A stretch of DNA of 38,355 nucleotides, from the NCBI GenBank assembly GCA_947441435.1, contig CANETX010000006.1:1-38355 (forward strand). The letters run 5' to 3'. Position 1 is the stretch's first letter; each line of letters begins with the position of its first letter. Source of the stretch: Planctomycetaceae bacterium (lineage in GTDB: Bacteria; Planctomycetota; Phycisphaerae; Phycisphaerales; SM1A02). Below, one piece after another: positions 2,861 through 28,346 of this stretch. The notes beneath the pieces are model-generated. The model searched no databases. It had not been told where the DNA came from and worked only from the letters and a program-made list of their open reading frames with translations. The position numbers were made by a program, and so were the translations under genes.

Positions 2861-3588
2861 CGGTGGTGTTCGACCACCATGCCCGCGCTCCGGGCTGCAC
2901 CCACCGTCGGATGCTCCTCTGGGATCTCGGCGTCGCGTTCTGCCAGGCGGCACTCGCGTGGCGATACGGCCTGAGGATCGAGGGACGCGAGCACATCCCC
3001 ACGACCGGTCCCGTCATCTTCGTCGCGAATCATCAGTCCCTTCTTGACCCGATGATTCACGGCGTTGCGGCCACCGCCCGCGCCCCGAGACCGATGGCCA
3101 AGGAGTCCCTCTTTCGCATCCCGCTCCTCGGATGGTTCCTGAAGGAAGTCGGCTGCATCAGCGTGCGCGAGCAGGGGGCCAATCGCGACTCGCTTCGCGC
3201 GGCGCTCGACGAGTTGTTGGCGGGGCGCACTGTGCTTCTCTATCCCGAGGGGAGGCGCTCCGATGACGGTGAAGTCAAGGCTTTCCAAAGAGGGATCGAG
3301 TTCCTGCTGCGCAAGAGCAACGCCTCGATCGTCCCGATGGGGGTCGATGGCGCCTTTGCGGCGTGGCCACGCAGCCAGAAGTATCCGGCGTGGCGGGGAC
3401 GAGTCTGGGCGATCATCGGCCCGGCGATTCCCCCGAACGAAGTGGAACGGCTCCTCGTCGACCCGGCGGCAGGTCTTGCCTCGCTGCGAGACCGCGTCGA
3501 CTCGCTCATGCGCCAGTGCCGAGCGAGACTCGCTGACAGAGCCGGTTCCGGGGACCAATTGGGCGAGGTCGATCCATGGCTCTCGTGA
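2857..3588 (+). CDS. plsC: 1-acyl-sn-glycerol-3-phosphate acyltransferase (PlsC family); start TTG 2857 or ATG 2911
   Basis: NHX4D motif NHQSLLDP; LYPEGRRSDDGEVKAFQRG motif; follows cmk, a common pairing. Confidence 0.9.
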   Translation: MTVVFDHHARAPGCTHRRMLLWDLGVAFCQAALAWRYGLRIEGREHIPTTGPVIFVANHQSLLDPMIHGVAATARAPRPMAKESLFRIPLLGWFLKEVGCISVREQGANRDSLRAALDELLAGRTVLLYPEGRRSDDGEVKAFQRGIEFLLRKSNASIVPMGVDGAFAAWPRSQKYPAWRGRVWAIIGPAIPPNEVERLLVDPAAGLASLRDRVDSLMRQCRARLADRAGSGDQLGEVDPWLS

Positions 3589-4841
3589 GGCGCACCCCCG
3601 ATGGTGCGGATGGCGGTGGCGCAAGGCGAGACCTCTCGCCGCGGGAAGCCGCCTGCGCCGTCGCGGGCCGTCTCGCCGATCGTGGACATGTCGCCTACTT
3701 CGCAGGGGGATGCGTTCGCGACGCCCTGCTCAAGTTGGAGCCCGCCGACTACGACATCGCCACGAGCGCGACCCCCGAGGAGATTCGGGCGGTCTTTCGT
3801 TCCTCGCGCGGAGTCGGCGAGAGTTTCGGCGTGAACCTAATCCGACTCGGCGGACGGACGATCGAGGTCGCGACCTTCCGTTCGGAGGGCGAGTACACCG
3901 ACGGTCGTCGGCCCTCCCATGTCACCTTCAGTTCGGCCGAAGCGGATGCCCGACGACGCGACTTCTCGATCAACGGTCTCTTCGAGGATCCCCGCACTGG
4001 CAAGGTCATCGACTTTGTTGGTGGGCAGGCCGATCTCGCCGCAGGACTTCTTCGCGCCATCGACGATCCCGACCGACGGATGCAGGAGGATCGCCTGCGC
4101 ACACTGCGCGCCGCGCGGTTCGCGGCGCGGTTCTCCCTCAAGGTGGATCCCGTGACGGAGGCAGCCGTCGTCAAGTACGCCCCTGATCTCGCGGGAGTGA
4201 GCCGCGAGCGCGTCGGCGTGGAATTCAGGCGCATGATGGATCATCCATCGCGCAGCGTTGCCGCCGAACTCATCGAGCGATGGGGGCTTGACGCCGGATG
4301 CCTCGGCGAGTCGAACTCGACGGGTCCGCTCGTGCGACTCTCGGGAGTTGGGGAGGTGACGCCGTTCTTCGCGGCGCTGGCCGCGTGGCGGCTCGACCGC
4401 GCGGGTCGGACTCCGCCCGCAGGATCCGGCGCGTGGCATCGCGCACTCATGCTCTCCAATCGCGAACGCGACGACTTCACGTCGACACTGGAGTCAGTCG
4501 CCGCGATTGACGCGAGTTGGGACGCATCCACCGTCAGCGCACGCAAGAGGCTCGCCGCGCAATCCACATTCGCCGCAAGCCTCGCGATCGCGGCTGCCGC
4601 GAATCCCGACCGCGGCCGAGAAGTGCGCGCCGAGGTCGAGTCGCTGGAGGGGTCCCACGGCGGCGTGGCACCAGATCCCTTCGTGACCGGCCACGATCTC
4701 ATTGCGATGGGTGCGGTCCCCGGACCACTCTTCAAGGAACTCCTCGACTCGCTCTACGACGCGCAACTCGAGGGACAGGTCGTGACCCGCGAGGAGGCGC
4801 ACATTCGTGCGCGAAGTCGCTTGGCGGACGTAAAAAACTGA
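3576..4841 (+). CDS. CCA tRNA nucleotidyltransferase / poly(A) polymerase family protein
   Basis: AYFAGGCVRDALLKLEPADYDIATSATPEEIRAVF nucleotidyltransferase motif; RRRDFSINGLFEDPRTGKVIDFVGGQADL; EDRLRTLRAARFAARF. Confidence 0.93.
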   Translation: MALVRRTPDGADGGGARRDLSPREAACAVAGRLADRGHVAYFAGGCVRDALLKLEPADYDIATSATPEEIRAVFRSSRGVGESFGVNLIRLGGRTIEVATFRSEGEYTDGRRPSHVTFSSAEADARRRDFSINGLFEDPRTGKVIDFVGGQADLAAGLLRAIDDPDRRMQEDRLRTLRAARFAARFSLKVDPVTEAAVVKYAPDLAGVSRERVGVEFRRMMDHPSRSVAAELIERWGLDAGCLGESNSTGPLVRLSGVGEVTPFFAALAAWRLDRAGRTPPAGSGAWHRALMLSNRERDDFTSTLESVAAIDASWDASTVSARKRLAAQSTFAASLAIAAAANPDRGREVRAEVESLEGSHGGVAPDPFVTGHDLIAMGAVPGPLFKELLDSLYDAQLEGQVVTREEAHIRARSRLADVKN

Positions 4842-4889: not shown

Positions 4890-6200
4890 ATGAATCTCCT
4901 CCTGTCAGCACTGGTGACGGCCGCCACGCTCTCTGCTGGATCGACCCAGGTATGGGCGATTCAATCGAAGCCATCTGCAACCCCTCCGGCAGCAAAGCCG
5001 GCAGCTCGGCCGGAAGGGAAGCCTGCGACAGCGAAGCCCGCGTCAACCAAGCCCGGCACGACTCCTCCGGCCAAACCTGCGGCGACACCTGCGGCGGTCC
5101 CACCCCCGATTGCATCGGGAGAGCAGCCCAAGTCGGTCTACGTCGTCCCGATGGGATTCCCCGGCACCGGCCAATTCGGACTCGATATCCATCCCTCGGT
5201 CTACGAAAAGGTCGCGGCGGACATCGCCGAGAAGCATCCCGACATCGTGGTCTACGTCCTTCACTCGGCGGACGTCGATCAGGTGGCCTACATGGGAGAC
5301 GATCCGACGGAGCGCGGAATCTTCGAGGATGACTCGATGCGCGACGGGATGCGCAAGCTGAAGGAAGCCGTCAAGCAAGCAGGCGCCGAACAGGTGATGG
5401 TGATCCGTGATGCGGTCGGCTACGGCGCGCTCCTCGGGCTCTACTGGCCCGACATGTACATGACCAGCCGGGCGCGACTCGCGGGGCTCAACCGCATTCA
5501 GGAGCGGACCCAAGTCGAGGACACGGAAGTGCGCGCGAAGTTCCAAGAGGCGTTCGTCGGCATCTGCAACGGGTTCCTCGTGTCGGGCGGATATCCCGAT
5601 GTGATCGGTCTCGCCATGATGCGTCCCGAGAAATTCCTGAGCGCGACCTTCCGCGGGCGAGAAATCGTTTGGGCCGACAACGACAAGGGGGCATGGATCG
5701 TCGACAACGTCAAGGACCGAGTCGCCGGATTCGATGCGCAGTCCGCCGAGGAACTCGGGCTCTCCGACGGCACCGTCGCTGACGAGGATGGCGCCATGTT
5801 GGAAGACCTCATGTTCCAGCGTGGGGTCCGCGAGTTCGACCGCATGGACAAGGACGGCGAAGTCCTCGTGAAGGCCTACATCGACGGTTGGCGCAAGGCG
5901 CTCGAAGAGGCGCGAAAGTCCATGGAGTCGTTCGAGGAGGCGATGGGGAATGCCGTTGGCAAGGATGAGAAGCGGTACCTGAGCCAGGCGCGCACCATCC
6001 TCGAGAAGGTCCTCGCGCTGTTCAAGAAGTACCCCGCCGTGGCCATGCGCGCCCGCTCGTTCGGCGCGGGCAAGTTGCAAATCGAGGTCGAACTCGAGCG
6101 AATCAAGGAACGGATCCGCGGGCTCTCGAAGTCCGCGCCGACCGGCACCGGAGGCTCCGGCAAGGGCCCCACAGGCCCCGGCCTCGGCGCCGGCGGCTGA
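4890..6200 (+). CDS. Secreted ClpP/SppA-fold-like protein, probable pseudoenzyme
   Basis: N-terminal signal-like segment, then an Ala/Pro/Lys-rich linker and a domain colinear with the next gene. The expected Ser region reads DAVGYGALLGLYWPDMYM. Confidence 0.6.
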   Translation: MNLLLSALVTAATLSAGSTQVWAIQSKPSATPPAAKPAARPEGKPATAKPASTKPGTTPPAKPAATPAAVPPPIASGEQPKSVYVVPMGFPGTGQFGLDIHPSVYEKVAADIAEKHPDIVVYVLHSADVDQVAYMGDDPTERGIFEDDSMRDGMRKLKEAVKQAGAEQVMVIRDAVGYGALLGLYWPDMYMTSRARLAGLNRIQERTQVEDTEVRAKFQEAFVGICNGFLVSGGYPDVIGLAMMRPEKFLSATFRGREIVWADNDKGAWIVDNVKDRVAGFDAQSAEELGLSDGTVADEDGAMLEDLMFQRGVREFDRMDKDGEVLVKAYIDGWRKALEEARKSMESFEEAMGNAVGKDEKRYLSQARTILEKVLALFKKYPAVAMRARSFGAGKLQIEVELERIKERIRGLSKSAPTGTGGSGKGPTGPGLGAGG

Positions 6201-6206
6201 GCGCTT

Positions 6207-6260
6207 GCATGACCCGCATGACCTGCATGACCAGAGTGACACGCATGACAAGCCTGACAC
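6207..6260. repeat. Intergenic 9-bp tandem repeat, six copies (consensus GCATGACMN, copies 4-6 degenerate)
   Basis: Read directly: GCATGACCC GCATGACCT GCATGACCA GAGTGACAC GCATGACAA GCCTGACAC. Confidence 0.85.
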
Positions 6261-6274
6261 ACCTCTCCATCACC

Positions 6275-7399
6275 ATGAAGTACAGACTGACCATCGTTGC
6301 TTGCCTCGCCGCACTCGCCTCTGGCCCCGCCGCGTTTGCCCAGACGAAACCCGCGGCGCCGAAGAGTCCGGCGACGACCGCGAAACCGGCCGGAACGCAG
6401 TCCAAGTCGGGCGCCAAGTCGGATACGACTCCTCCCGGAGCCGCTGCCGATGTGGTCGCCAAGAAGACGCAGGTCTTCGTCCTTCCCCTCGACGGCATGG
6501 TCGGCGTCGGGCTGCGGCACGAAGAGATGGAGGAAGTGGCGAAGCTCGCAGACACTTTTGGACCAGGGCAAATCATCGTGATCCGGGTGAATTCCAACGG
6601 CGGACTCGTGATCGAGGGTGACAAGATCAGCGAATCCCTGAGCCGGATCAAGCAGCAGCACCGACTCGTGGCGTGGGTCGAGAAGGCGATCTCGGGAGGG
6701 GCATTCACTGCACTCTGCGCCGACGAGATCTACTTCATGCCTGAGGCGGCCCTCGGCTCGATCACCATGCTTTCCGGGCAGACGGAGGTCGCTGCCGTGC
6801 GTGAGGACTGGAAGGCGCGAGTCGCCGAAGCGTGCGCATTGGGGGGACGCGATCCGAAGATCGGCCCGGCGATGGTGCACTCGGCCGTCGAACTCTCTTA
6901 CGAGAAGGACCCCAAGACAGGGAAGGTCACCTTCTACAACGACTACACACACGAGTTCAAGCTCTCCGACAACCACGAGAACCTCGACTTCAGCGCGGCG
7001 ACGGCGGAGCACTCTGGGTTTTCTGAAGGGACTGCGGCGACCGAGCAGGAACTGTTCCTCGCGCTCGGAGTCGATGACACCGAGAAGTTCCAGATCAATG
7101 ACGCCGGCAAGAAGATCGCGGCGAAGTGGCAGAAACTCATCAAGGGAGCGCACGACGAAGTGCCTCTCTTGATCCAGAAGCGCGAAATCGAAGGGACGTC
7201 CGGGGGCGGCATCGCGTTCCTCCAGGCGCGCATCCGCAACACCCAGAAGATCATCGACTGGTTCAAGAAGGCAAAGCCCGCCATGATCTACGAGCTCAAT
7301 GTCGGCGAGCGTGCCATCGAGCAGCTCGAGCTGGAGATCAAGGAGATGCGCAAGCAGATCAAGGAGATGCAGGCGGCACAAGGCGCGGCCGGCAACTGA
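6275..7399 (+). CDS. Secreted SDH/ClpP-fold serine protease-like protein
   Basis: Signal peptide MKYRLTIVACLAALASGPAAFAQ; KPA-rich linker; IIVIRVNSNGGLVIEGDKISESL and EKAISGGAFTALCADEIYFMPEAALGSITML match the SppA/NfeD/ClpP-class pattern (Gly-rich oxyanion strand, SGG nucleophile elbow, ADEIY). Confidence 0.75.
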   Translation: MKYRLTIVACLAALASGPAAFAQTKPAAPKSPATTAKPAGTQSKSGAKSDTTPPGAAADVVAKKTQVFVLPLDGMVGVGLRHEEMEEVAKLADTFGPGQIIVIRVNSNGGLVIEGDKISESLSRIKQQHRLVAWVEKAISGGAFTALCADEIYFMPEAALGSITMLSGQTEVAAVREDWKARVAEACALGGRDPKIGPAMVHSAVELSYEKDPKTGKVTFYNDYTHEFKLSDNHENLDFSAATAEHSGFSEGTAATEQELFLALGVDDTEKFQINDAGKKIAAKWQKLIKGAHDEVPLLIQKREIEGTSGGGIAFLQARIRNTQKIIDWFKKAKPAMIYELNVGERAIEQLELEIKEMRKQIKEMQAAQGAAGN

Positions 7400-7411: not shown

Positions 7412-8449
7412 TCAACCGACTTCGCGGCGCTGGAAGAGGGCGATGGCGAGCGCGAGCGCCGCGCACACCATCAGCGCCCCATATGCCATCACCCGCCCGA
7501 AGTACTCGAGCGGAATCTGCTGAGCCTGATTGACGGCATCGACCACCCAGAAGACCTGAAAGTTTGGGACGATCGCGTACGCCGTCTTCATTGCCGAGAG
7601 TTCGAAGAGGTCCGCCCCCGTCGCCGTGGTCCCGGCCGCCTCGCGCACGGCAATGGCCTGCTCGATGGCGTGGAGCCGTCGACCAATGATCCAGTCCGAG
7701 AGAAGCCCGATGAGCAGCGTCGCGAGGGTGGCACTGAGCGTCAAGACGCGGCCGAGCCGCGTGCTCACCGCGATCGCGACGGCGGCGAGGACCGAGAGTG
7801 CCATCGCCATCAGCAGGACCGCGGCCCACAATTCAAGGCGAAACTCCGTCGCGATCTCGATCACATTCCACTGAGGATCGAAGAGGAGGCTGAAGCCATA
7901 GGCCACAAGCAGAAGCGGCCCACCGAGCAGCACGGTCACCGCCCCAAAGTTCCGCCCATAGAAATAGTTGCACCACGTCGCGGTGGCGATCGTCAGGACG
8001 GCCGCCGCCACGCCGAAGAGCACGCAGGGCCATCCCACCGGTGTCGCCGCGGTCTGGATGACGCCGTGAACTTCGACGAGGAAGAACGCCATCGCGGGGA
8101 GGGCGATCGACGCCAAGAGGGCCACCACGACTCCGGCGTACTTGCCCACGATGAATGTCGCCCGAGCCACAGGTTTCGACACGACCGTCAGGACCGTTCG
8201 ATTGGTGATCTCTTCATCGATGACGCTCGTGGCCAGAAACGCCGCCAAGAGCGCCCCAGCCATGAAGATCGTGGAGAGGCCGATGTCGACATACATCCGC
8301 TGATCGTCACTCATGGTGAATGCGGCGAACTGGTTGCTCAGGAACACCAAGAGCGTCGCCGCCCCCACGACAATCAGCGTGATGGGTTGTCGGACGCACT
8401 CCAGAAAGGTGTTCCGCGCGATCGTGAGGAACTGCTCGAGGAAGACCAT
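7412..8449 (-). CDS. ABC-2-type membrane permease
   Basis: MVFLEQFLTIARNTFLECVRQPITLIVVGAATLLVFLSN...DEEITNRTVLTVVSKPVARATFIVGKYAGV...; about 6 hydrophobic segments; typical ABC-2 permease pattern. Confidence 0.8.
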   Translation of the reverse strand: MVFLEQFLTIARNTFLECVRQPITLIVVGAATLLVFLSNQFAAFTMSDDQRMYVDIGLSTIFMAGALLAAFLATSVIDEEITNRTVLTVVSKPVARATFIVGKYAGVVVALLASIALPAMAFFLVEVHGVIQTAATPVGWPCVLFGVAAAVLTIATATWCNYFYGRNFGAVTVLLGGPLLLVAYGFSLLFDPQWNVIEIATEFRLELWAAVLLMAMALSVLAAVAIAVSTRLGRVLTLSATLATLLIGLLSDWIIGRRLHAIEQAIAVREAAGTTATGADLFELSAMKTAYAIVPNFQVFWVVDAVNQAQQIPLEYFGRVMAYGALMVCAALALAIALFQRREVG

Positions 8450-8573
8450 GGACTCAGAGGGCAAGGGTAGCGAACCCGGGCATGGGTGGGGTCGTACCCT
8501 CAACGAGGCAGCCCCCTCGAAAACCCCATACGATCGACTGACTCGCGACTCCACGAGCCCCCAAAGGCCCCAG

Positions 8574-10691
8574 ATGACCCAAGACCATTTCGTCTATCAG
8601 CAAGCGACGCGCGTGTGTGGCTTCGGCCTGCTCTTGCAAGCCGCTGTCGGCATCTTCCTCCTCGTCTTTGGGCGGGCGGTCGGTGACACTTCGCTCCTGA
8701 TCGCATCGGTGTATGTCCTTTGCGGCGTCCTCGTCTGGCTCTCGCTCGTGGTCGTGTTTCATCAGCACCGTCTGGAGCGGATCGAGGCGCTCGAGAACGA
8801 GGAAGTCGAGGCCCAGCGGCACGGAGCAACCAGCGTCTTCGAAGGCGATCGCGAGGTCACCCAGGCCGCGGCGCACCGCCTTCGACTGATGCACCAGTGG
8901 CTGATGCCGGTGAGCAGCCTGCTCGTTGCGCTCATGCTCGGCGTGTTCTGCTGGGCGACACTGAACTGGTTGGTGCGACTTGATGACAAGGCCGGGAACG
9001 CCACGACGTTTCTGATCGGCGGACATTCGGGGTGGCAGCTGGCTGTGTGCGTCGCCGGAGGGCTTGCCACATTCATCTTCTCGCGGTTCGTCGCGGGGAT
9101 GGCCCGGCAGGCCGCCTGGCAGAACCTGCGCGGAGGGGCAGGGGCGATGGTGGGGATCTCCATCGTGCTCTCGGCGATCGCCGTCGGGATTGTCTTCCAG
9201 GTCTTTCGCAAGCCTGCCGTTCTTGAGGGGGTCGCCTTCGGGATCGCCATCTGTGCGGGAGTGATCGCGGCGGAGATTGCCCTCAACCTGATTCTCTATC
9301 TGTATCGCCCGCGGCGAAGCGGCGAGACGCCTCGACCCGCGTTCGACTCCAAGCTCTTGGGGCTCGCCTCCGCCCCCGACTCCATCGTCCGCACGATCAA
9401 CGAGGCGGTCAACTACCAGTTCGGCTTCGACATCACGAGTTCGTGGGGCTACCAACTCCTGCTGCGCAGCGCGACGCGGCTCGTGATTCTCGGGGTCGCG
9501 ATCCTCCTGCTGATGTCCACGGTCGTCGTCGTTCCCCCCGGGGATCAGGCGGTGCGGCTGCGCTCGGGGCGGATCGTGGGGGATGTGGCGGAAGGGTCGC
9601 TCATCCTCAAGTGGCCGTGGCCCTTCGAGACGATCGAGCGCCACGACATCGGACAGATCCGCACCTTGGTGCTCGGCGCCAAACCGATGAAGACCTCGGG
9701 GGTGAATCTCTGGCCGGTTGAAGCGACTGGCGAGTCGGAACGATCTCCGTTCATCGTCCTGGCGGCTGATGTCCCAGCGATGGGAGCGGCGGTTCCCGGT
9801 GCGGCTGCGAGCGAACAAGGCGACACCGCGAAGGTGTCGAGCCAGTTTGCCCTCGTCGATGCAGACATCGTCCTCGAGTACCGAGTGAAGAAGGATGGGC
9901 TCCTCGACTTCCTGTCGTTCACGAGCGACTCGCGCTCCCGGACGAGTCCCCTCGACATGCGCGAGCGCGCACTCAGGGCGATGGCGCTGCGCGAGGCGAG
10001 CCAGCTCTTCTCGACGAAGTCGATCGATCAAGTTCTCTCGCCGAGCGGCGACTCCCTCGTCCGGCAGCTCAAGGACCGGGTCCAAGCGGCGTTCGATCGC
10101 GGGCAGAGCGGCGTTGAAGTTGTCGGCGTGTTGATCCCCGTTCTGCGCCCACCCGCAGGCGAGGCGGCGGGGATGTTCGAGGAACTCTCGATCGATGTCC
10201 AGAACGCGCGCAAGGTCGTCGACGAGGCTCGACGCATCGAGAACACGACGCTCTCGACGCTCGCGGGCACCCCCAAGGGAGCGCTGGAAATTGTCGCGGA
10301 GATCCGGGGATTCCGCGCGCTTGAACGTGAACTCGGGCCGACGGCGCCAGCGGTCCTGTCGAAGAAGGCTTCCATCGAGCGGGCCCTCGTCGAAGCGGGG
10401 GCGCAGTCGGCAAGCGTCATCAGCGCGGCACGCGCGAAGCGTTGGGACATGCTCATGCGTGCTCGGTCGAGCGCCTCGGATGTTGCGGGGCAGGCCCCCG
10501 CGTACCACGTCGCTCCCACCCTCTATCGCGAGCGGGCGATCATGAATGTGCTCACCCGGTCGCTCGCCAATGCCCGCATCAAGTACGTGCTCGCGGTCGA
10601 TCCCGCACGGATCGACTTCGATGTGCAGATGGAGCAGCCCGAGCCTGGACTCAACCTCGGCGACTATCTCGAGAAGAAAGACAGCAAATGA
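8574..10691 (+). CDS. Polytopic SPFH/Band-7 (HflK-like) protein with long multi-TM N-terminal extension
   Basis: Start ATG 8574. Several TM segments, then EAVNYQFGFDITSSWGYQLLLRSATRLVILGVAILLLMSTVVVVPPGDQAVRLRSGRIVGDVAEGSLILKWPWPFE..., an SPFH N-terminus, followed by a coiled-coil region. Confidence 0.82.
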   Translation: MTQDHFVYQQATRVCGFGLLLQAAVGIFLLVFGRAVGDTSLLIASVYVLCGVLVWLSLVVVFHQHRLERIEALENEEVEAQRHGATSVFEGDREVTQAAAHRLRLMHQWLMPVSSLLVALMLGVFCWATLNWLVRLDDKAGNATTFLIGGHSGWQLAVCVAGGLATFIFSRFVAGMARQAAWQNLRGGAGAMVGISIVLSAIAVGIVFQVFRKPAVLEGVAFGIAICAGVIAAEIALNLILYLYRPRRSGETPRPAFDSKLLGLASAPDSIVRTINEAVNYQFGFDITSSWGYQLLLRSATRLVILGVAILLLMSTVVVVPPGDQAVRLRSGRIVGDVAEGSLILKWPWPFETIERHDIGQIRTLVLGAKPMKTSGVNLWPVEATGESERSPFIVLAADVPAMGAAVPGAAASEQGDTAKVSSQFALVDADIVLEYRVKKDGLLDFLSFTSDSRSRTSPLDMRERALRAMALREASQLFSTKSIDQVLSPSGDSLVRQLKDRVQAAFDRGQSGVEVVGVLIPVLRPPAGEAAGMFEELSIDVQNARKVVDEARRIENTTLSTLAGTPKGALEIVAEIRGFRALERELGPTAPAVLSKKASIERALVEAGAQSASVISAARAKRWDMLMRARSSASDVAGQAPAYHVAPTLYRERAIMNVLTRSLANARIKYVLAVDPARIDFDVQMEQPEPGLNLGDYLEKKDSK

Positions 10692-11626
10692 TTAGGCGCA
10701 TACCCATCCTCGTGGCGATCGTCATCGCCGCAGTCCTCATCCTGTTCAACACGACCTACACGGTGAACTTCCATGAGATCGCCGTGCTGACCCGCTTCGG
10801 CAAGCCCGCAGGCGTCGAACGCGAGGCAGGGCTGCATCTCAAGGCTCCCCTGTTCATCGATCAGGTCTCACGCATCGACACTCGGCTGCAGTTCATCGAG
10901 AGCCCGCTGGAGACGATCCTCACGACCGATGGCCAGCAGGTGCTCGTGCAGGCCTATCTCCTCTGGAGGATCGACTCGGCCGGAGACGCGCCGCTCCAGT
11001 TCTTTGTCTCCTACGGAAGCGTCGAGGCGGCAGGGCGAGAACTCGAAACGCAGTTGCAAGGAGCGGTGCGCGCGGTGGGCCGGTACCCATTCGGCGAACT
11101 CATCGGCACGGGCAGCAAGATCGCCGATGCCGAGGCGGCAATCCTCGCCGACCTCAAGTCGACGAAACTCGCGGGGATCGAGCCAGTCAGCGTCGGCATC
11201 TCGCAGATCGTCCTCCCCCCCAAGACGACCGTGGCGGTCCAGCGTCGGATGGCGGCGGTGCAGGAGACGCTCGCCAATCTCGAAGAGTCGAAGGGGAACT
11301 CTGAGGCGGAGACGATCAAGAGTCAGGCTGCCAGCGCCGCTGACACGATCCGGAACTTCGCCGACCAGTGGGCCGCCGCGATCGAAGCGAAGGGAAACGT
11401 CGAGGCGACCCGCTACTACCAATCGATGAAGGAAGACGCGGAACTCGCCATCTTCCTCGCATGGCTTGATGCGCTCAAGGGCTCGCTCTCGGGGAGCACG
11501 ACGTTCGTGACCGATCTCAATCGGGCTCCATTCCATCTCCTCGATCTCTCAACGCCGGCAGGGCCGGGCGCGATCCCTCAGCCCGCCGCCCCCTACGCGA
11601 CGCCAGCAGCTGGTGGAGGGAACTGA
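10688..11626 (+). CDS. SPFH/Band-7 protein, HflC-like
   Basis: MIRRIPILVAIVIAAVLILFNTTYTVNFHEIAVLTRFGKPAGVEREAGLHLKAPLFIDQVSRIDTRLQFIESPLETILTTDGQQVLVQAYLLWRI; ATGA overlap with the upstream SPFH gene. Confidence 0.9.
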   Translation: MIRRIPILVAIVIAAVLILFNTTYTVNFHEIAVLTRFGKPAGVEREAGLHLKAPLFIDQVSRIDTRLQFIESPLETILTTDGQQVLVQAYLLWRIDSAGDAPLQFFVSYGSVEAAGRELETQLQGAVRAVGRYPFGELIGTGSKIADAEAAILADLKSTKLAGIEPVSVGISQIVLPPKTTVAVQRRMAAVQETLANLEESKGNSEAETIKSQAASAADTIRNFADQWAAAIEAKGNVEATRYYQSMKEDAELAIFLAWLDALKGSLSGSTTFVTDLNRAPFHLLDLSTPAGPGAIPQPAAPYATPAAGGGN

Positions 11627-11627
11627 C

Positions 11628-13085
11628 GTGGGAGTCGATGGCGACCGCAACCAGGCTGACCCGCAGCAGGCCGACGCGCAGCAGGCCGACGCGCAGGGCT
11701 CTGAACGCTCTGCGCGGCGCAGCAAGAGTGCGCACCTCCAACTGGATGTGCGTTCGAGCGATGCGGCGTCGCTTCGCGAAGCGATGGATCCGGCGAACCA
11801 GAGTCTGGGAGAGGCTCTGCGTCTGTCGTACCGGCTCCTGCAAGTCGCGATCCTCGGACTCGTGGTGACCTTCTTCTTCTCCGGATTCCAACAAGTTGCC
11901 GAGGGAATCGCCGGGATCCGAACGATCTTCGGGCGTGTCGCCGGCAAGGAAGGGGAAGAGTCGCTCGCTCCGGGGCTCCATCCGTTTTGGCCGTACCCCG
12001 TGGGCGAGTTCCACACATTGCCGCAGCGGCGGACGATCGAACTCGGCGACGCGTTCTTTCCCGTGTTTCCCAAATCGGACATGACAATGGAGCAGGCCAC
12101 CGACTCTGCCGACGAAAACAACCCGATTCGGCCGGGGAAGGATGGTTCGCTCATCACCGCCGATGGGGATCTCGCTCACGTGCGTGTGACCGCGGAGCTT
12201 GCCATCGCCGACCCGGTGGCGCTCTTGACCCACGCGAGTCCGGAGCGGATCGATGCCATCATGCGGGGACTCCTGCGGCATGCGGTCGTGCAGGTGGTCG
12301 CTCAGTACACGCTGGCGGAACTCCTCGAGGAGCGCGACACGCCTGAAGCCGACATCAAGCGCGCGGCGCAGGAGGCAGCGGATCGGCTCCGGCTCGGAGT
12401 GCAGGTGATCTCCGTCTCTCTCCCTGAGAGGACGGCTCCGCTCGCCGTGCGCAACGCGCTGCGCCGGGTGCAGACCTCGCGCGAAGACGCCAAGACTGCG
12501 ATGGAGCGAGCCCGGCAGGAGGCGAATGCGAAGCTCGTCGGTGCGGCGGGGCCGAACTACCCCGCCGTGCTCACGATGATCGACGACTACGAGCAGCAGC
12601 TGACCGCGGGAGACGAGGTCGCCGCCGATGCGCTCCTACAGAAGATCGGCGAGCGCCTCGAGCAGCCGGACATCGCCGGAACGGCCTCGATGATCGTGGC
12701 TCGGGCGAAGGCGTATCAGTCCGCGCTTGAGTCGACGCTCGGCAAGGAAGCGCAGCGCATCGAGAGTCTGTCGGCGAGTTACCGCGAGAATCCGCAGCAG
12801 CTCGTGCAGAAGCTGTGGCTCGAGGCGGTTCGTGAAGTGACGAGCCAGCGGCAGGCGGAAGTCTTCTCCGTGCCGCCTGGGCTCGGCAAGTACGCCATCC
12901 GCATCAAGAGTTCGCCGCAAATCATGCAGGCCCGCCGCGATGCGGAGTTGGCGCGCAAGAAGCAGGAGGCCGAGATGATCGGCCTCAACCTCCCGTCGTT
13001 CCAACTCGGCTCTCGGCAGATCATGATCGACAAGGCGGGTCGCCGCCTCGATGCGTCGGGGGAGAAGGGCTTTGGCCGTGAATAG
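11628..13085 (+). CDS. SPFH/Band-7 protein, HflK-like (GTG start)
   Basis: Single TM (LLQVAILGLVVTFFFSGFQQV), then GIRTIFGRVAGKEGEESLAPGLHPFWPYPVGEFHTLP, an HflK-like Band-7 core and a coiled-coil C-terminus. Confidence 0.88.
   Translation: MGVDGDRNQADPQQADAQQADAQGSERSARRSKSAHLQLDVRSSDAASLREAMDPANQSLGEALRLSYRLLQVAILGLVVTFFFSGFQQVAEGIAGIRTIFGRVAGKEGEESLAPGLHPFWPYPVGEFHTLPQRRTIELGDAFFPVFPKSDMTMEQATDSADENNPIRPGKDGSLITADGDLAHVRVTAELAIADPVALLTHASPERIDAIMRGLLRHAVVQVVAQYTLAELLEERDTPEADIKRAAQEAADRLRLGVQVISVSLPERTAPLAVRNALRRVQTSREDAKTAMERARQEANAKLVGAAGPNYPAVLTMIDDYEQQLTAGDEVAADALLQKIGERLEQPDIAGTASMIVARAKAYQSALESTLGKEAQRIESLSASYRENPQQLVQKLWLEAVREVTSQRQAEVFSVPPGLGKYAIRIKSSPQIMQARRDAELARKKQEAEMIGLNLPSFQLGSRQIMIDKAGRRLDASGEKGFGRE
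11652..11693 (+). repeat. Short in-frame tandem repeat (15-bp CAGCAGGCCGACGCG x2 plus a 12-nt related unit) encoding QADPQQADAQQADA
   Basis: Two perfect 15-mers read at 11664-11678 and 11679-11693, preceded by CAGGCTGACCCG. Confidence 0.85.
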
Positions 13086-13094
13086 GAGCGTGCG

Positions 13095-14297
13095 ATGACC
13101 GCATCGCCAGGAACGGGTGGGGGGCCGCCCATCGTCGAGGCATCGGGACTCGTCAAGACCTTCTCGGACTTCTGGCTCCGCACGAAGGCGCGCGCCGTCG
13201 ACGGGATCTCGTTCGAGATCCGTCCGCACGAGATCTTCGGACTCCTCGGGCCCAATGGATCGGGGAAGTCGACCACGATCAAGATGATCCTCGGGCTGCT
13301 GCGCGTGAGCAAGGGACGGCTGACCGTCTTCGGGCGCGATCCGAGCGATGTGTCGCTCAAGTCGCGCATCGGCTACCTCCCAGAGGAGTCGTATCTCTAT
13401 CGCTTCCTCAATCCGCGTGAAACGCTCGACTACTACGCCAAGCTCTTCGGTCTTCCTCGCGCGATGAGGCGTCGGCGCATCGACGAACTCATCGAGATGG
13501 TCGGCCTCGAGGGTGCGGCCCACCGCGCCGTCGGCGAGTTCTCCAAGGGAATGGCCCGGCGTCTCGGCCTCGCGCAGGCGCTCATCAATGATCCCGAATT
13601 CCTGATCCTCGACGAGCCGACCTCTGGACTCGACCCCGTGGGCACGCGGCAGGTGAAGGACCTGTTGATCGATCTCGGTCAGCGGGGCAAGACCATCCTG
13701 CTGTCGTCACACCTCCTTGCCGATGTCGAGGATGTTTGCGACCGGATGGTGGTGCTCTACGGTGGAAAGATCCGCGCCCAAGGGACCACGGATGAACTGT
13801 TGTGCGACACGAATCGGACGACGATTTGCGTTCCTCGGCTGAAGCCGCAGACGATCACGCTGATCGACGAGCTGATCGCCCGCGAAGAGGGGGCCTCGAT
13901 CGAGCGGGTCGAATCTCCACGGCAGCGGCTCGAAGACCTCTTCATGCAGATCGTGGAGACGGCTCGGCACGAGCAGTCGGCGACAAGCGGCGCGCTCCAG
14001 GGTGGGCGGACTGCCGCGTTTCTTCTGGGTGTTGGGGGGGAAGGGGAGGGAACTCCGTCTGAAGTCATCGCCGAACTTGAGAAGCAAGCCGCCGCGCCTG
14101 CAGTTCGGGCCACCCCAGTTCGATCCGCACCCGCTGCGGCTGAACCCGATGTAGTCAAAGGTCTCGTCGCCGAGCCGACGAAGGCGCCGTCCAAGCCGAG
14201 CGCGCGGCAGGGGCCGCAAGTTCCTCCCGCCGTCGACTCGTCGGTGATCGAGGGGCTGTTGGATCGCAAGGACGCAGGAGGGGAGCGGAGGCCGTGA
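13095..14297 (+). CDS. ABC transporter ATP-binding protein with ~100-aa low-complexity C-terminal tail
   Basis: Walker A GPNGSGKST; signature FSKGMARRLGLAQAL; Walker B FLILDEPTSGLD; Ala/Pro-rich tail after ~residue 300. Confidence 0.93.
   Translation: MTASPGTGGGPPIVEASGLVKTFSDFWLRTKARAVDGISFEIRPHEIFGLLGPNGSGKSTTIKMILGLLRVSKGRLTVFGRDPSDVSLKSRIGYLPEESYLYRFLNPRETLDYYAKLFGLPRAMRRRRIDELIEMVGLEGAAHRAVGEFSKGMARRLGLAQALINDPEFLILDEPTSGLDPVGTRQVKDLLIDLGQRGKTILLSSHLLADVEDVCDRMVVLYGGKIRAQGTTDELLCDTNRTTICVPRLKPQTITLIDELIAREEGASIERVESPRQRLEDLFMQIVETARHEQSATSGALQGGRTAAFLLGVGGEGEGTPSEVIAELEKQAAAPAVRATPVRSAPAAAEPDVVKGLVAEPTKAPSKPSARQGPQVPPAVDSSVIEGLLDRKDAGGERRP
14027..14050 (+). other. Putative G-quadruplex motif within the ABC ATPase gene
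   Basis: GGG-TGTT-GGGGGGG-AA-GGGG-A-GGG: four G3+ tracts with loops of 7 nt or less. Confidence 0.6.
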
Positions 14298-16330
14298 GTC
14301 GGTTCGCGGAGGTGCGGCACGGGCTCGCCCGATGGGAGGCCTCCTCGCGCGCGCGGTGGATCCTGCCGTGCGTGGTGGCAATTGCCATCGGGGCAGCAGC
14401 GACACCGCTTGTGATCTCGTCGTTTCGATACTCCGCGCTCGTCTCTGAGATCGCGGATGTGCTGAAGGGGGCCAACGCAGCCCAGCGGACACCCGGGGCC
14501 GTCGAACTTCTGGAGTCGGGGACGGTCACCCTTCTTGGAGATCGCAAGGTCGGCTCTGCTCGGATCCGAGCGATGGCTCCCGAATTCTTCGACGAGTCGG
14601 GGCGACTGCTGGAGCCCGCGGCAGTCGCGTCCGTTATCGCCACGACCGAAGCTCCGACATGGGCGCCGCCGACGATTGTGGAGCAATCCTCCCTGATTCT
14701 TGCGCTGGCCCTTGGCATTGGCGCGATCGGCATCCTCGCGGTGTGGTTGGGGTTGTTCTTCCCGATGCTGCTCATCGTCGTTGGGTGCGCAGCGGTGACC
14801 GCCCCGCTCTGGTGGCTGGGATTTCTCGAGCCGGGGGCGGCGGTTGCCGGGATCGGTGCACTGCTGTTCGCCTTCCTTCTCCTGTCGAGACTGGCGCTGC
14901 GACTCCTCTCGACCGCACGCCCGATTCCCTCTGTGGCGCACGCGTTCGTCCTCGAGGGATTGCGCCAGCGAATCTCCATCGGGTTCATCGGCGCGCTGCT
15001 CGTCATCCTTCCACTCATCCCACTCTCCATCGATTCGCGCGAACCGCTGCGCTATCAAGTGCAGACGTACCTGTCGAAGGGGACAACGCTCGTCTTCGTC
15101 TTCGCCGCCTGCCTGACGCTTTTCCTGGCGTGCGCCACGGTCTCCTTCGAGATCCGCGATCGGCAGGTGTGGGGTCTCCTCACCAAGCCGCTCTCGCGCC
15201 TCAACTATCTCCTCGGGAAATTCGTGGGACTGCTCGTGCTCAACGCGATCATCGTGGGAGTGGGCGGGGCGGCGGTCTTCGCCCACACCGAGATCCTGAG
15301 GACACGGCAGGCGGCCGACATCGCCGATGCCGCGGCGTTGCGGGACCAGGTCCTCGTCGCGCGGGCGGTGGCGATTCCTGAGTACCCGATCCTCGAGCCT
15401 GAGCGCCTCGACGACATGGTGGCGCGCTCGATCGAACAGGACTCCATCCTGCGCGCTGATATTGCCGAGGGTCGACGGTCGGAGGCGGAGGTGCGCCGCG
15501 AACTCGCCCAAGGCAAGCTCAAGGAGTTCGATGTCCAGCAGCGCACGGTCGACGCCGGCAAGTCGCGGACCTTCGTCTTCCACGGGCTCTCGGAGGCGCG
15601 CTCAGCAGGGTCGGACCCCGTGCTGCGCTACAAGTTCCACATTGGCCGCGATGACTCCCACGAGACGTTCCCTGTGCTCTTCATCTTCGCCGATGCTCCG
15701 CCGGCGATGGTCAATTATGTCCCCGTCCAGCGCAATGTCTTTCCGATCCCGGCGGCAGCCATCGCCGAAGACGGGACGCTCACCGTGCAGGTCGTCAACG
15801 GAGGATTGACGCAGGCGCTCGAGTTCTATCCAGGGCCGTGGTCGCTGAACTTCGACCTCGATGGATTCGAGGTCCTGCACCGCGTCGGTTCGTTCGAGGG
15901 CAACTTCGTGCGGGCCCTCCTCGTGGACTGGTCGAAGCTCGCGTTCCTCGCCGCGCTCGGCGTCGCCGCAGGAAGCGTCCTGTCGTTCCCGGTGGCGGTG
16001 CTCCTCGCGTTCACCATCTTCATGTCGGGATCGCTCTCGCCATTTCTCGGGATGGCCCTTCGGAACTACTACATCCGCGACGAGAGCGACTGGCTGACCC
16101 GCGCGTTCCAGCACGGAGTCAAGGCCATCGCCGAGACGGTCCGCTGGGCATTCGCTCCGTTCTCGGAGTCAGGGGCCACCACCGACCTCGTCGACGGACA
16201 GGTCATTACCTGGATGGATGTCCTTGCAACCTTCTGGAAGGTTGGGGTGGCATGGAGTGCGGTGGCGCTCACCGCCGGTTGGCTGGCGTTCCGCCGCAAG
16301 GAGATCGCCATCTACAGCGGCCAAGGCTGA
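14294..16330 (+). CDS. ABC transporter permease with large extracytoplasmic insert
   Basis: GTG start overlapping the ATPase stop; several TM helices (e.g. ILPCVVAIAIGAAATPLVISSF; LGKFVGLLVLNAIIVGVGGAAVFA); long hydrophilic region roughly residues 340-540; C-terminal TM helices. Confidence 0.8.
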   Translation: MSRFAEVRHGLARWEASSRARWILPCVVAIAIGAAATPLVISSFRYSALVSEIADVLKGANAAQRTPGAVELLESGTVTLLGDRKVGSARIRAMAPEFFDESGRLLEPAAVASVIATTEAPTWAPPTIVEQSSLILALALGIGAIGILAVWLGLFFPMLLIVVGCAAVTAPLWWLGFLEPGAAVAGIGALLFAFLLLSRLALRLLSTARPIPSVAHAFVLEGLRQRISIGFIGALLVILPLIPLSIDSREPLRYQVQTYLSKGTTLVFVFAACLTLFLACATVSFEIRDRQVWGLLTKPLSRLNYLLGKFVGLLVLNAIIVGVGGAAVFAHTEILRTRQAADIADAAALRDQVLVARAVAIPEYPILEPERLDDMVARSIEQDSILRADIAEGRRSEAEVRRELAQGKLKEFDVQQRTVDAGKSRTFVFHGLSEARSAGSDPVLRYKFHIGRDDSHETFPVLFIFADAPPAMVNYVPVQRNVFPIPAAAIAEDGTLTVQVVNGGLTQALEFYPGPWSLNFDLDGFEVLHRVGSFEGNFVRALLVDWSKLAFLAALGVAAGSVLSFPVAVLLAFTIFMSGSLSPFLGMALRNYYIRDESDWLTRAFQHGVKAIAETVRWAFAPFSESGATTDLVDGQVITWMDVLATFWKVGVAWSAVALTAGWLAFRRKEIAIYSGQG

Positions 16331-16333
16331 CCC

Positions 16334-18295
16334 ATGCGTGATCGAGCGATCCAACTTCTGTGCGTCGCCGTGGCGGTCGCGGCGATCGCGTTCGGCGGAT
16401 CGCTGCTGCCTTCGATTCTCCGAATCAGCGACGAGCACTCGCTTCGGTACACCGATGTCTCGCTCGAGGGCGCGCCTCCGATCGTCGCGGTGGGCACCGC
16501 CATCGGCGCCCTCCGAGGGATCATCGTCGACTACCTGTGGCTGAAGGCTGGCGTCCAGAAGGAGAAGGGTCTCTTCTACGAGGCGATGGCCGACGCACGA
16601 CTGATCACGCAGTTGCAGCCACGCTTCGGTGAGGTCTGGGGATTCCAGGGCCACAACATGGCCTACAACATCTCCGTCCTCACCGACACGCCGAGCGAGC
16701 GGTGGGAGTGGGTCCGAGCGGGGATCGATCTCGTACGCGACGAGGGACTGCGCTACAACCCCAACGATCTTCCGCTGCACAAGGAACTCGCCTTCTGGCT
16801 CTCCCACAAGGTGGATGGCGTCGCCGACGATGCGCACCTCTACTACAAGCGGGAATGGGCCAGAGAGTGGCAGTTCCTCTTGGGGGTTCCCCCCGCGACA
16901 CACGCGGAGCGGGTCGCCATGCTTGAGGCGATCAAGAACGCTCCCGACACCCTCGAAGAACTCGAACTCAAGGACCCGTCGGTCAAGGTCATGATCGACG
17001 CGCTCACGGGCAGCCTGTCGGCATTCGATCGCAAGTTCCAATTCCGGCTCGATCGTGACTTCCTCATGAACCTCGGCCGCTGGGAAGGGGTTCAGACGAG
17101 CCGTTACGCGAAACTCCTCCGTCTCGACGAGGCATTCCGGCGAAACGACCCGGTCTACGCCGCCTTCGATGCGGTGCTCAAGGCCCCCGAGTCGCAGGGG
17201 GCGCTCACGTCATTCCGTCCGTTCCTTCGCAAGAAGGTTCTCAAGGACGCCTACAACATGGATGCGGCGCTCATGTGGGCTTACACCTCCGAGTTCGGCC
17301 CCTTCGATTGGCGCCATCCGCAGTCGCATGCGTTCTACTGGGCGCGCAAGGGGGCGACGACCGCCGCGAAGCGATCGTCGAACGTCGAGGACATCTACAA
17401 GGTCCTCAACAACGACCGAATCAACATCCAGGCGATGCAGGCCCTGTCGCGCACGGGGCTGATGCAGTTCGACCCCTTCAGCAACGACAATCCGGGGCGA
17501 CTCAACGATCCCAGGTGGATCAAGTCGATCGATCGCTACTTCGGCGAGCTCTACCGCAAGCACTTCGGGACGCGCGGGGGAGGGGGCGACTCGTTCTGCG
17601 ACTTCTATCAGAACTTCATGTCGCAGGCCGTGCGCGAACTCTTCCGCCTCGGCGACTATGAGGGGGCGCAGGCGATTCTCACCAAGCTCGACAATCTGTT
17701 TGGCCGCGGCGGACTCATCCCCAACAACAAGTATGAGGCACCGCTGGATGTCTTCGTCCGGAACGTGACCTACGGCGAGTACGAAGGATCTCCCGATGTG
17801 GCGCGCAGCGATGTCTACGCGGCGCTTGGCCGCGGATTCCGCGAGGGATTGCTGCTGGATCGTCCGGAGGTCCTCAAGCAGGCCTTGGACTTCGCCCGTG
17901 ACCTCACCCTCTATTTCCAGGGGAATCGATATACCGATTTCGTCAACAAGTTCGGGGAGCGGCGCATGGCCGACCTCCTGGGCAATCTCAAGACGAGCGT
18001 GCAGGATGTGTTCGCAAATGTCCTCATGGACACTTCGCAGCCCCTCATCGATCGCTTGACGATTTACAACCGCGCCGCGGAGACGGAGCGCCGGCTCATC
18101 TACGACCTCGTGAAGGGTCCAATCGAAGCGGAGTTCGCCGCTGATCCGATCGCCAACGTTGCTCCCTTCACACAGATCTTCCCCGAGCCGCCAGAGATGG
18201 AGGCGTTCCGTGCAGCGCGCGCCGCCGAGGCTGCCGCCCGCACGGTCGAAGCCGAAGCTGAGGCAACCAAGCGATCGACGGCGGAGATCCGCTGA
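16334..18295 (+). CDS. Conserved membrane-anchored hypothetical protein (possibly helical-repeat)
   Basis: N-terminal TM anchor MRDRAIQLLCVAVAVAAIAFGGSLLPSIL, then VDYLWLKAGVQKEKGLFYEAMADARLITQLQPRFGEVWGFQGHNMAYNISV; gene starts 3 bp after the permease stop. Confidence 0.7.
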   Translation: MRDRAIQLLCVAVAVAAIAFGGSLLPSILRISDEHSLRYTDVSLEGAPPIVAVGTAIGALRGIIVDYLWLKAGVQKEKGLFYEAMADARLITQLQPRFGEVWGFQGHNMAYNISVLTDTPSERWEWVRAGIDLVRDEGLRYNPNDLPLHKELAFWLSHKVDGVADDAHLYYKREWAREWQFLLGVPPATHAERVAMLEAIKNAPDTLEELELKDPSVKVMIDALTGSLSAFDRKFQFRLDRDFLMNLGRWEGVQTSRYAKLLRLDEAFRRNDPVYAAFDAVLKAPESQGALTSFRPFLRKKVLKDAYNMDAALMWAYTSEFGPFDWRHPQSHAFYWARKGATTAAKRSSNVEDIYKVLNNDRINIQAMQALSRTGLMQFDPFSNDNPGRLNDPRWIKSIDRYFGELYRKHFGTRGGGGDSFCDFYQNFMSQAVRELFRLGDYEGAQAILTKLDNLFGRGGLIPNNKYEAPLDVFVRNVTYGEYEGSPDVARSDVYAALGRGFREGLLLDRPEVLKQALDFARDLTLYFQGNRYTDFVNKFGERRMADLLGNLKTSVQDVFANVLMDTSQPLIDRLTIYNRAAETERRLIYDLVKGPIEAEFAADPIANVAPFTQIFPEPPEMEAFRAARAAEAAARTVEAEAEATKRSTAEIR

Positions 18296-18298
18296 ACG

Positions 18299-18967
18299 AT
18301 GCACATTCCGCCAGCCATCCTGTGCATCGGCCGCAACTACGCGGAGCACGCCGCGGAGATGGGGGGTGCGGCACCCACGAATCCTGTCGTCTTCTTCAAG
18401 AACCCAGCAGCGCTGAGTTCGTCGGGCGCGCCGATCGTCATCCCCTCAATCTGCCGCGAGGGGGGGGCGCAAGTCGACTACGAAGGGGAACTCGCGGTCA
18501 TCCTTGGTTGCGATTGCCGGGAGGTTCCGGAGGAGCGCGCACTGGCCGCGGTGGGTGGCTACGCAGTCGCCAACGATGTGAGCGCGCGCTGGTGGCAGAA
18601 TCAAGGGGCGGGTGGGCAATTCTGTCGTGGCAAGAGTTTTGACACATTCTGCCCTATGACGACCCCGGTCTCAGCAAACGCCGCGAGCGGGATCATGGAC
18701 CCGCAGGCGCTGCGAATTCAAACGCGCGTCAACGGCGAGCTCCGTCAGGACGCGCCGACGAGCCAGATGATTTTTCCCGTGGCGAAGTTGATCGCCGAAC
18801 TCTCCCGAGGAATGACGTTGCGTGCGGGCACGATCATCCTGACGGGATCTCCCGCAGGCGTCGGCCACGCCCGCAAACCCCCGGTCTATCTGAAGCACTC
18901 GGATGTGGTCGAGATCACCATCGCCGGTGTGGGCACGCTGACCAATCCCGTCGTTGAGGCGGCGTGA
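18299..18967 (+). CDS. Fumarylacetoacetate hydrolase (FAH) family protein
   Basis: ILCIGRNYAEHAAEMGG...FFKNPAALSSSGAPIVIPS...VDYEGELAVILG...NDVSARWWQ...GKSFDTFCPM. Confidence 0.9.
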   Translation: MHIPPAILCIGRNYAEHAAEMGGAAPTNPVVFFKNPAALSSSGAPIVIPSICREGGAQVDYEGELAVILGCDCREVPEERALAAVGGYAVANDVSARWWQNQGAGGQFCRGKSFDTFCPMTTPVSANAASGIMDPQALRIQTRVNGELRQDAPTSQMIFPVAKLIAELSRGMTLRAGTIILTGSPAGVGHARKPPVYLKHSDVVEITIAGVGTLTNPVVEAA

Positions 18968-19227
18968 TCACGAGGGAACCATCTCTCGCAGCACGGGTCT
19001 GTCTCTCCCTCGTGCGCGGCTACCAACTGCTGCTCTCGCCGATGTTCGGCGGACGCTGCAGATTCCACCCGTCCTGTTCGGTCTACGCCGACGAAGCCAT
19101 CCGAATTCACGGAGCGGTGCGGGGCGCGATGCTCACGATTCGTCGACTGGCGCGCTGCCACCCGTGGGGGGGCTCTGGCGACGATCCCGTGCCGCGAGCC
19201 TCTGGGCGAGTGCCGCCGCACCCTTGA
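18964..19227 (+). CDS. yidD: Membrane protein insertion efficiency factor YidD
   Basis: 87 aa; LVRGYQLLLSPMFGGRCRFHPSCSVYADEAIRIHGAVRGAMLTIRRLARCHPWGGSGDDPVP is a textbook YidD pattern; GTG start. Confidence 0.93.
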   Translation: MITREPSLAARVCLSLVRGYQLLLSPMFGGRCRFHPSCSVYADEAIRIHGAVRGAMLTIRRLARCHPWGGSGDDPVPRASGRVPPHP

Positions 19228-19546
19228 CGAACATCTGGCGACACTCTTCGAGCGACTCGTCCCGGTGGACACGAACCGCGACGACAAGATCGAGGCCCTT
19301 CGGCAATCCGCCGCGCTCGAGTCGGAACGCCTCGCGCAGGAGTCGTTTGATCCGGCCACGCTCCACGGCGCCCCCCACGCGTGCCCCGACCGACAGCCCG
19401 AGTCGAGAGAGCGCCACTTCGTTCCGCGAGCCATGGAGGACTGCCCACCCGAAATCTTCGCGTGTGCGCCGGGCGAACACGGCGGCGAACTGTCGCGGTC
19501 CGGCCATGCGGGCTGCGCGGGGGAATCGCTGCGGAGGAGTCGTCAT
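19133..19546 (-). CDS. rnpA: Ribonuclease P protein component
   Basis: PRAARMAGPRQFAAVFARRTRE...SRLGLSVGARVGGAVERGRIKRLLREAFRLERGGLPKGLDLVVAVR; RnpA core motif (RxRIKRLLREAFR). Confidence 0.92.
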   Translation of the reverse strand: MTTPPQRFPRAARMAGPRQFAAVFARRTREDFGWAVLHGSRNEVALSRLGLSVGARVGGAVERGRIKRLLREAFRLERGGLPKGLDLVVAVRVHRDESLEECRQMFVKGAAALAQRLAARDRRQSPPTGGSAPVDES

Positions 19547-21381: not shown

Positions 21382-21396
21382 GAAAGGGCTTATGAT
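21368..21396 (+). promoter_or_regulatory. Predicted sigma70-like promoter for the RpoZ-like gene
   Basis: TTGCGT (21368-21373), 17-bp spacer, TATGAT (21391-21396); followed by an RBS-like AAAGGGAGG and ATG at 21426. Confidence 0.5.
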
Positions 21397-21425
21397 ATTG
21401 GGCTTCCCAAAGGGAGGCCCCACCC

Positions 21426-21659
21426 ATGAATGAGACCCTCAAGAGTGACGACATCGTGGCCAAGGTCGGCGGCCGATTCAAGCTCGCCGCCCTGATTCAG
21501 CGCCGCATCGGCCAACTTCTCGATGGGGCCCGACCGTTGGTCGAGCGCAACGGTCGCAGCGACTTCGAGGTCGTGATCGAGGAGATCGCGACCGACAAGA
21601 TCTCGATCAATTGGGAGCAGTCGGGAATCAAGCCTCCGGCCAAGCCCAAGAAGGGCTGA
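21426..21659 (+). CDS. Small RNA polymerase omega (RpoZ)-like protein
   Basis: 77 aa; DIVAKVGGRFKLAALIQRRIGQLLDGARPLVERNGRSDFEVVIEEIATDKISI resembles the omega core (NRF-LV-A--R--QL-G--PLVE---D---ALEEIA-GKI). Confidence 0.62.
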   Translation: MNETLKSDDIVAKVGGRFKLAALIQRRIGQLLDGARPLVERNGRSDFEVVIEEIATDKISINWEQSGIKPPAKPKKG

Positions 21660-21847
21660 ACACCAATCGAAAATGGGGGAGACTGGTTCGCCTCGCGCGA
21701 TTTTGCTCAAGCAAAGTGGCAATTTTCGCGGGATTCGAGCGCTCGTTCTTGCCCAGAGTCGGTTCGGGCGTACCTTAAGAACGCGAAGGTCGTCTCTGCG
21801 GGGCATCTGTTGCTCCGTGGCGCGCTGTTTCCAATAGGAGTGCAACA

Positions 21848-26197: not shown

Positions 26198-26199
26198 CG

Positions 26200-28328: not shown

Positions 28329-28346
28329 GAGTGGCTCCTGAAGCGA

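Follow-up and report, generated by a model that had tools for sequence, protein, structure and literature searches.

The window analysed here, meaning the whole 38,355-nucleotide stretch, is contig 6 of a Planctomycetaceae draft genome of 2.06 Mb in 192 contigs. It contains two adjacent open reading frames on the forward strand, ORF1 and ORF2, whose relatives in other genomes are called A and B copies, respectively (Table 1). An earlier note on this DNA had described a tandem pair, and the order of the two reading frames and all of the peptides quoted there are found as described. The ORF1 core lacks both the nucleophile Ser and the oxyanion Gly-Gly. The reading frame of ORF2 is open from an ATG at 6209 (6209–7399, 396 residues); the ATG at 6275 (MKYRLTIVACLAALASGPAAFA...) appears the more likely start because the 22 codons preceding it (MTRMTCMTRVTRMTSLTHLSIT) form a repeat-like leader. 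The segment 6204–6275, which separates ORF1 from the probable ORF2 start, consists of short ATGACC/ATGAC-like repeat units, reading MTRMTCMTRVTRMTSLTH, and looks like a lineage-specific intergenic repeat. Scans for promoters and terminators found nothing.

Table 1. Positions in the window of the ORF1/ORF2 pair, its catalytic-site features and its neighbours
Feature	Positions	Strand	Description
cca (tRNA nucleotidyltransferase)	3576..4841	+	Conserved upstream neighbour of ORF1-like genes; context only
ORF1 (A subunit)	4890..6200	+	436 aa; signal-peptide-like N-terminus, Pro/Ala/Lys linker, NfeD1b-like core, helical C-terminus
ORF1 LHSAD, counterpart of the oxyanion loop	5259..5273	+	Gly-Gly replaced; Asp in 54/68 homologs; insertion after
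ORF1 Gly177, nucleophile column	5418..5420	+	Gly in 60/72 A copies
ORF1 Lys217 (K217), aligned with the NfeD1b/1510-N catalytic Lys (Lys138)	5538..5540	+	74/74 A copies
ORF2 (B subunit)	6275..7399	+	374 aa; signal-peptide-like N-terminus, linker, NfeD1b_N core, helical C-terminus
ORF2 NSNGG oxyanion loop (N106-G110)	6590..6604	+	Both Gly invariant in B copies
ORF2 Ser140, nucleophile in KAISGGAF	6692..6694	+	Ser in 73/74 B copies
ORF2 Ala174-Val175, expected site of catalytic Lys	6794..6799	+	Column rank 297 of 328 in B copies
Three SPFH/Band_7 genes	8313..13085	+	Downstream of the pair, past an opposite-strand ABC-2 gene; context, outside the enzyme

The cca gene lies upstream of ORF1-like genes even in genera in which the ORF2-like gene is located elsewhere. 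The first of the three consecutive SPFH/Band_7 proteins has a long N-terminal membrane region, and the three genes are followed by an ABC ATPase gene at 13095–14297. SPFH1 is found in 34 of 51 loci of family f1 and in 0 of 9 loci of families f2–f4, and the synteny of SPFH1 and SPFH2 with the A/B pair is kept in much of family f1. Further along the window, large open reading frames at 14294–23386 have no Pfam match, and BatA/VWA, TPR and BatD-like genes on the reverse strand at 24347–29444 form an aerotolerance-type cluster.

The paralogy of ORF1 and ORF2 proposed in the earlier note is borne out by a profile–profile comparison with 48 homologs on each side, which lies far above chance (probability 100, E 1.5e-41, 22% identity over 271 columns) and spans both the core and the helical C-terminus. 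ORF2 matches NfeD1b_N (PF25145) at 73.1 bits against a cut-off of 40, and scores below the cut-offs of the SppA (S49) profiles (TIGR00706, 42.7 bits versus 155; PF01343, 13.5 versus 24.9), of the ClpP (S14) profile PF00574 (14.9 bits versus 20.2), and of SDH-type ClpP-like families. Among solved structures, the one it matches best in sequence is SppA of B. subtilis. Searches of Pfam, NCBIfam and the PDB sequences with ORF1 itself give no match, and it is through its homologs, 19 of 48 of which match PF25145 (best 8e-11), that the protein can be tied to the NfeD1b/ClpP fold. An AlphaFold2 model of ORF2 (pLDDT 67, usable for fold recognition only) is closest to 1510-N (E 5.5e-6) and SppA, and the model of ORF1, built from five sequences, has a mean pLDDT of 52 and no meaningful fold match, so that the fold of ORF1 is assigned from sequence profiles alone. 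A Pfam scan detects an NfeD C-terminal domain in neither protein; a separate full-length NfeD1b is encoded in the same genome (L113). No viral relatives of ORF1 or ORF2 were found. Two proteins closely related to ORF1 are encoded in metagenome-assembled genomes of planctomycetes, one of them a Phycisphaerales of deep Lake Baikal.

These results support the assignment of the pair to the ClpP/SppA/NfeD superfamily as tandem paralogs that are probably exported, the export being suggested by signal-like N-termini read by eye. The KPA-rich linker that the earlier note reported is present in the genus of the window; many other genera carry a different N-terminal segment in its place. This extra segment, seen in A and B copies outside the genus (e.g. 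L084, L086, L099), has a pattern like LTFSNGSSWRGDVKKIDGRIVFV... and no Pfam match. Relative to four relatives in the genus, dN/dS is 0.06–0.17 for ORF1 and 0.06–0.14 for ORF2, rough values because dS exceeds 1; judged from these codon comparisons, both genes are under purifying selection and neither is decaying.

Conservation at the catalytic positions was counted by alignment column in about 75 copies each of A and B from four families of the order. Ser occupies the nucleophile column in 73 of 74 B copies, and the oxyanion Gly is present in all 74. The 72 A copies counted at the nucleophile column have Gly (60), Ser (7), Ala (4) or Gln (1), and the oxyanion Gly is found in 0 of 68. At the Lys column the pattern is complementary: Lys is present in all 74 A copies, in which this column ranks second in conservation among 312, and in only 7 of 74 B copies, in which it ranks 297 of 328 and is otherwise Ala, Val, Glu, Arg, Pro or others.

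The register of the Lys column can be followed by spacing. From Lys217 of ORF1 (VRAKFQEAFVGICNGFLVSGGY) it is exactly 18 residues to the Tyr of GGY, and the same distance separates the Lys of the full-length NfeD1b proteins of the same genomes (in ERAKLEAP...) from the Tyr of RGY that follows. The enzyme 1510-N uses a Ser-Lys dyad, Ser97/Lys138 (PMC3795559). In an alignment to the PDB entry, the Lys of a third paralog, L112, pairs with Lys138 (chain position 124), and in both proteins the catalytic Lys is 18 residues before the Arg of GR. The residue of ORF2 that lies 18 before Arg192 of GGR is Ala174, and the gapped family alignment places Val175 in the Lys column.

The earlier note held that the second protein retains the nucleophile Ser and oxyanion loop and that the first lacks both, and the column counts agree on each point. 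It went on to describe an active enzyme plus a pseudoenzyme, which as stated is unsupported, since the aligned residues indicate that ORF2 has lost the catalytic Lys and that ORF1 has it, a difference the note overlooked. The dyad that NfeD1b/1510-N carries in one chain is thus present in neither protein, ORF1 having the Lys and no Ser, and ORF2 the Ser and no Lys; instead, Ser and Lys are conserved in complementary fashion in paralogs that are inherited together.

Two possible sources of a complete site within one chain were examined, as the earlier note had suggested. An alternative catalytic Ser in ORF1 near the nucleophile elbow is rejected, the column being mostly Gly and the neighbouring Ser residues not being conserved among A copies. 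A ClpP-type Ser-His-Asp triad in ORF2 is likewise rejected: B copies have no invariant His (the best, located before the Ser, occurs in 52 of 63).

A few lineages depart from the general pattern and may have a changed arrangement. The seven B copies with Lys at the column are mostly from one genus and its kin, plus two others. The seven A copies with Ser at the nucleophile column belong to two genomes of family f2 and five g23 genomes, and all are without the oxyanion loop. The A copies of g23 (5 of 5 genomes looked at) read DAMSVASLL-like at this position, with Ser at the nucleophile column and no oxyanion Gly-Gly.

A self-sufficient ORF2, with another base or with none, alongside a catalytically dead ORF1 that plays a structural or regulatory part like that of ClpR beside ClpP, would account for the loss of the Ser and the oxyanion loop from ORF1, and mixed rings that contain inactive ClpP paralogs are well documented (PMC6508832, PMC7966870). 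Such an ORF2 would nevertheless have to act without the Lys that its nearest solved relatives use and, given the variable His, without a ClpP-type triad, and a purely structural ORF1 leaves unexplained why the catalytic residue it has retained is the one that ORF2 has lost. We regard this explanation as unlikely. As neither chain contains a complete site, a heteromer whose two partners share catalysis is a better fit than a regulator whose site is dead.

The absence of a complete site from any chain could also mean that neither protein is now a peptidase, and that the pair forms an envelope binding or scaffold complex bearing active-site remnants. The long helical C-termini and linkers are in keeping with such a function, as are the conserved SPFH neighbours in family f1, SPFH proteins being scaffolds. 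Pure scaffolding does not, however, predict that Ser140 and the oxyanion Gly-Gly in B, and Lys217 in A, should stay near-invariant over deep divergence, and this explanation is considered improbable, more so than the preceding one.

A genes, identified by searches with the ORF1 core, are present in 118 of 131 genomes of family f1, and A and B are same-strand neighbours at loci sampled from the order's families f1 to f4. When the A1 profile is run against the class and phylum, strong matches end at the order, f5 and f6 giving none or weak ones only. A search of 301 genomes of the order for ORF2-like proteins has matches at E ≤ 0.001 in 288, a count that includes other NfeD1b paralogs. Among 100 family f1 genomes searched for both genes, five lack B and all five also lack A, a co-absence that is explained in part by the adjacency of A and B. 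In genera g23 and g5 the genes are on different contigs (A copies L126, L128, L130, L132, L134 and L135; B copies L127, L129, L131 and L133) and both are retained, A mostly still behind cca; in these unlinked genera B is still Lys-less and A still Lys-bearing. Evolutionary distances of A and B are correlated, with a partial r of 0.875 when cca is the control and 0.66–0.68 with other controls; neighbouring genes on other subsets give about 0.53–0.75, and the correlation is set aside as evidence because it is not clearly above these values.

Co-inheritance also bears on the proposal that the two proteins are independent enzymes, ORF2 acting as a homomer and using a base specific to its lineage (such as Lys180, or the column Lys in genus g6) and ORF1 having a separate function that uses Lys217. 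Lys180 is indeed found in many copies of the genus of the window, and the catalytic column is occupied by Lys in seven B copies. Lys180 is, however, 12 residues and not 18 before Arg192 of GGR and is missing from most B copies, and A and B are inherited together as neighbours in most genomes. Independent function is accordingly judged very improbable, the least credible of the alternatives considered.

The origin of the pair can be approached through relatives that carry a complete site. In other families of the class and phylum, relatives present as single copies have the oxyanion loop, Ser (28/28) and Lys (26/28) in one chain, and Ser and Lys are likewise combined in 9 of 9 NfeD1b proteins and 3 of 3 copies of the third paralog. 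This third, NfeD1b-like paralog, found in the genus of the window (G000:C20:517-927, which is L142; L112; L144), looks exported and combines all three elements, Ser, oxyanion Gly-Gly and Lys, in a single chain. In trees A forms one clade and B forms one clade (SH-aLRT 95 in the 73-row tree), which points to one old duplication predating the split of families f1 to f4, and the occurrence of complete single-chain relatives elsewhere in the phylum indicates that A and B arose by duplication with reciprocal loss.

Related losses are seen in two further families. In f20 (L171, L181–L184) the upstream gene is complete and the copy downstream of it is Lys-less. In f26 (L167) the upstream copy has Asn in place of Ser and keeps the Lys, and the downstream copy keeps the Ser and has lost the Lys; this is the only fully complementary pair found outside the order. 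The Lys-less copies of f20 and f26 group with the complete enzymes of their own lineages, and a topology that unites every Lys-less copy, B included, in one clade is rejected (AU p 0.004), indicating that loss of a dyad member after tandem duplication occurred more than once.

On these grounds ORF1 and ORF2 are probably two subunits of one extracytoplasmic serine protease or peptidase of NfeD1b (1510-N)/SppA type with a composite Ser-Lys site. We also favour, with slightly less assurance, the wider proposal that the A/B pairs constitute an obligate two-gene serine peptidase, with nucleophile and general base on different paralogs, that would have arisen in the NfeD1b branch by duplication and reciprocal loss, would extend throughout the order, and would have parallels in the class in which Lys was lost independently. 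In the proposed course of events, an ancestral single-gene Ser-Lys enzyme would have undergone tandem duplication, after which copy A would have kept the general-base Lys217 and lost the nucleophile and oxyanion loop, and copy B would have kept Ser140 and the NSNGG loop and lost the Lys. We infer that, after export of both proteins, A and B assemble such that Lys217 of A, acting as general base across the interface, activates Ser140 of B for peptide hydrolysis, with the NSNGG loop of B stabilising the oxyanion. The Lys of A could instead be conserved for a structural reason, and the dyad of 1510-N may form inside one subunit. The substrate may be at or near the membrane, and kinship and the neighbouring genes would allow a guess at an SPFH protein or leftover signal peptides. 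A sensible though weak guess is an SPFH or other membrane-proximal protein, as SPFH genes lie near the pair in f1 and the partners of NfeD1b are SPFH proteins (PMC2636767); in families f2–f4 the pair occurs without SPFH neighbours.

If the composite-site reading is correct, the pair would be a clear example from nature of an active site divided over two genes via reciprocal loss of dyad members, with the complete ancestral type surviving in sister lineages and likely intermediates, in which Lys is lost in one copy only, in another family, and the step from a homomeric to an obligate heteromeric enzyme would become testable. In that case the pair would also caution that a missing nucleophile need not denote a pseudoenzyme: were annotation to go by the nucleophile only, ORF1 would be labelled dead and ORF2 active, and either label could be misleading. 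No known two-gene split in the NfeD1b family was found in the open-access literature, to which the search was confined, subscription papers lying outside it.

The closest known family is NfeD1b/STOPP (Pyrococcus horikoshii 1510-N; PDB 2deo, 3bpp, 3viv, 6m4b; PF25145), with which ORF2 shares the Ser motif and ORF1, through the alignment and identical 18-residue spacing of Lys217 and Lys138, the Lys. It differs in having Ser and Lys in one protein rather than two, and in its C-terminal membrane and OB-fold (NfeD) part, which A and B lack; they have instead a long helical C-terminus and, behind the signal-like N-terminus, a linker. In the 1510-N dimer the two copies of Lys138 lie very near each other (PMC3795559). 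SppA also uses a Ser-Lys dyad, its K199A mutant being inactive, and the sites of B. subtilis SppA are built from two adjacent monomers (PMC7568657). Active sites at interfaces are thus normal in the superfamily, which makes a division over two genes workable. B. subtilis SppA (PDB 3rst, 4kwb) resembles the proposed enzyme in drawing its active site from residues of two adjacent monomers, but is a homo-octamer in which both residues come from one gene.

ClpP with inactive ClpR, in cyanobacteria and plastids, has the same superfamily fold and likewise combines nucleophile-bearing and nucleophile-less paralogs that cooperate. There, however, Ser-His-Asp is complete in one chain and ClpR has only lost residues, whereas A and B would each supply the part that the other is missing; moreover, no partner ATPase gene is seen with the A/B pair. 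A fused precedent is offered by E. coli SppA (protease IV; PDB 3bf0/3bez), in which homologous halves have undergone reciprocal loss. Its Lys209 lies in the N-terminal half and its Ser409 in the C-terminal half, half-on-half alignment places Gln opposite Ser409, and the two residues form one site in the crystal structure. Both halves of E. coli SppA belong to one membrane-anchored polypeptide of subfamily S49, whereas A and B are encoded by two genes of the NfeD1b branch.
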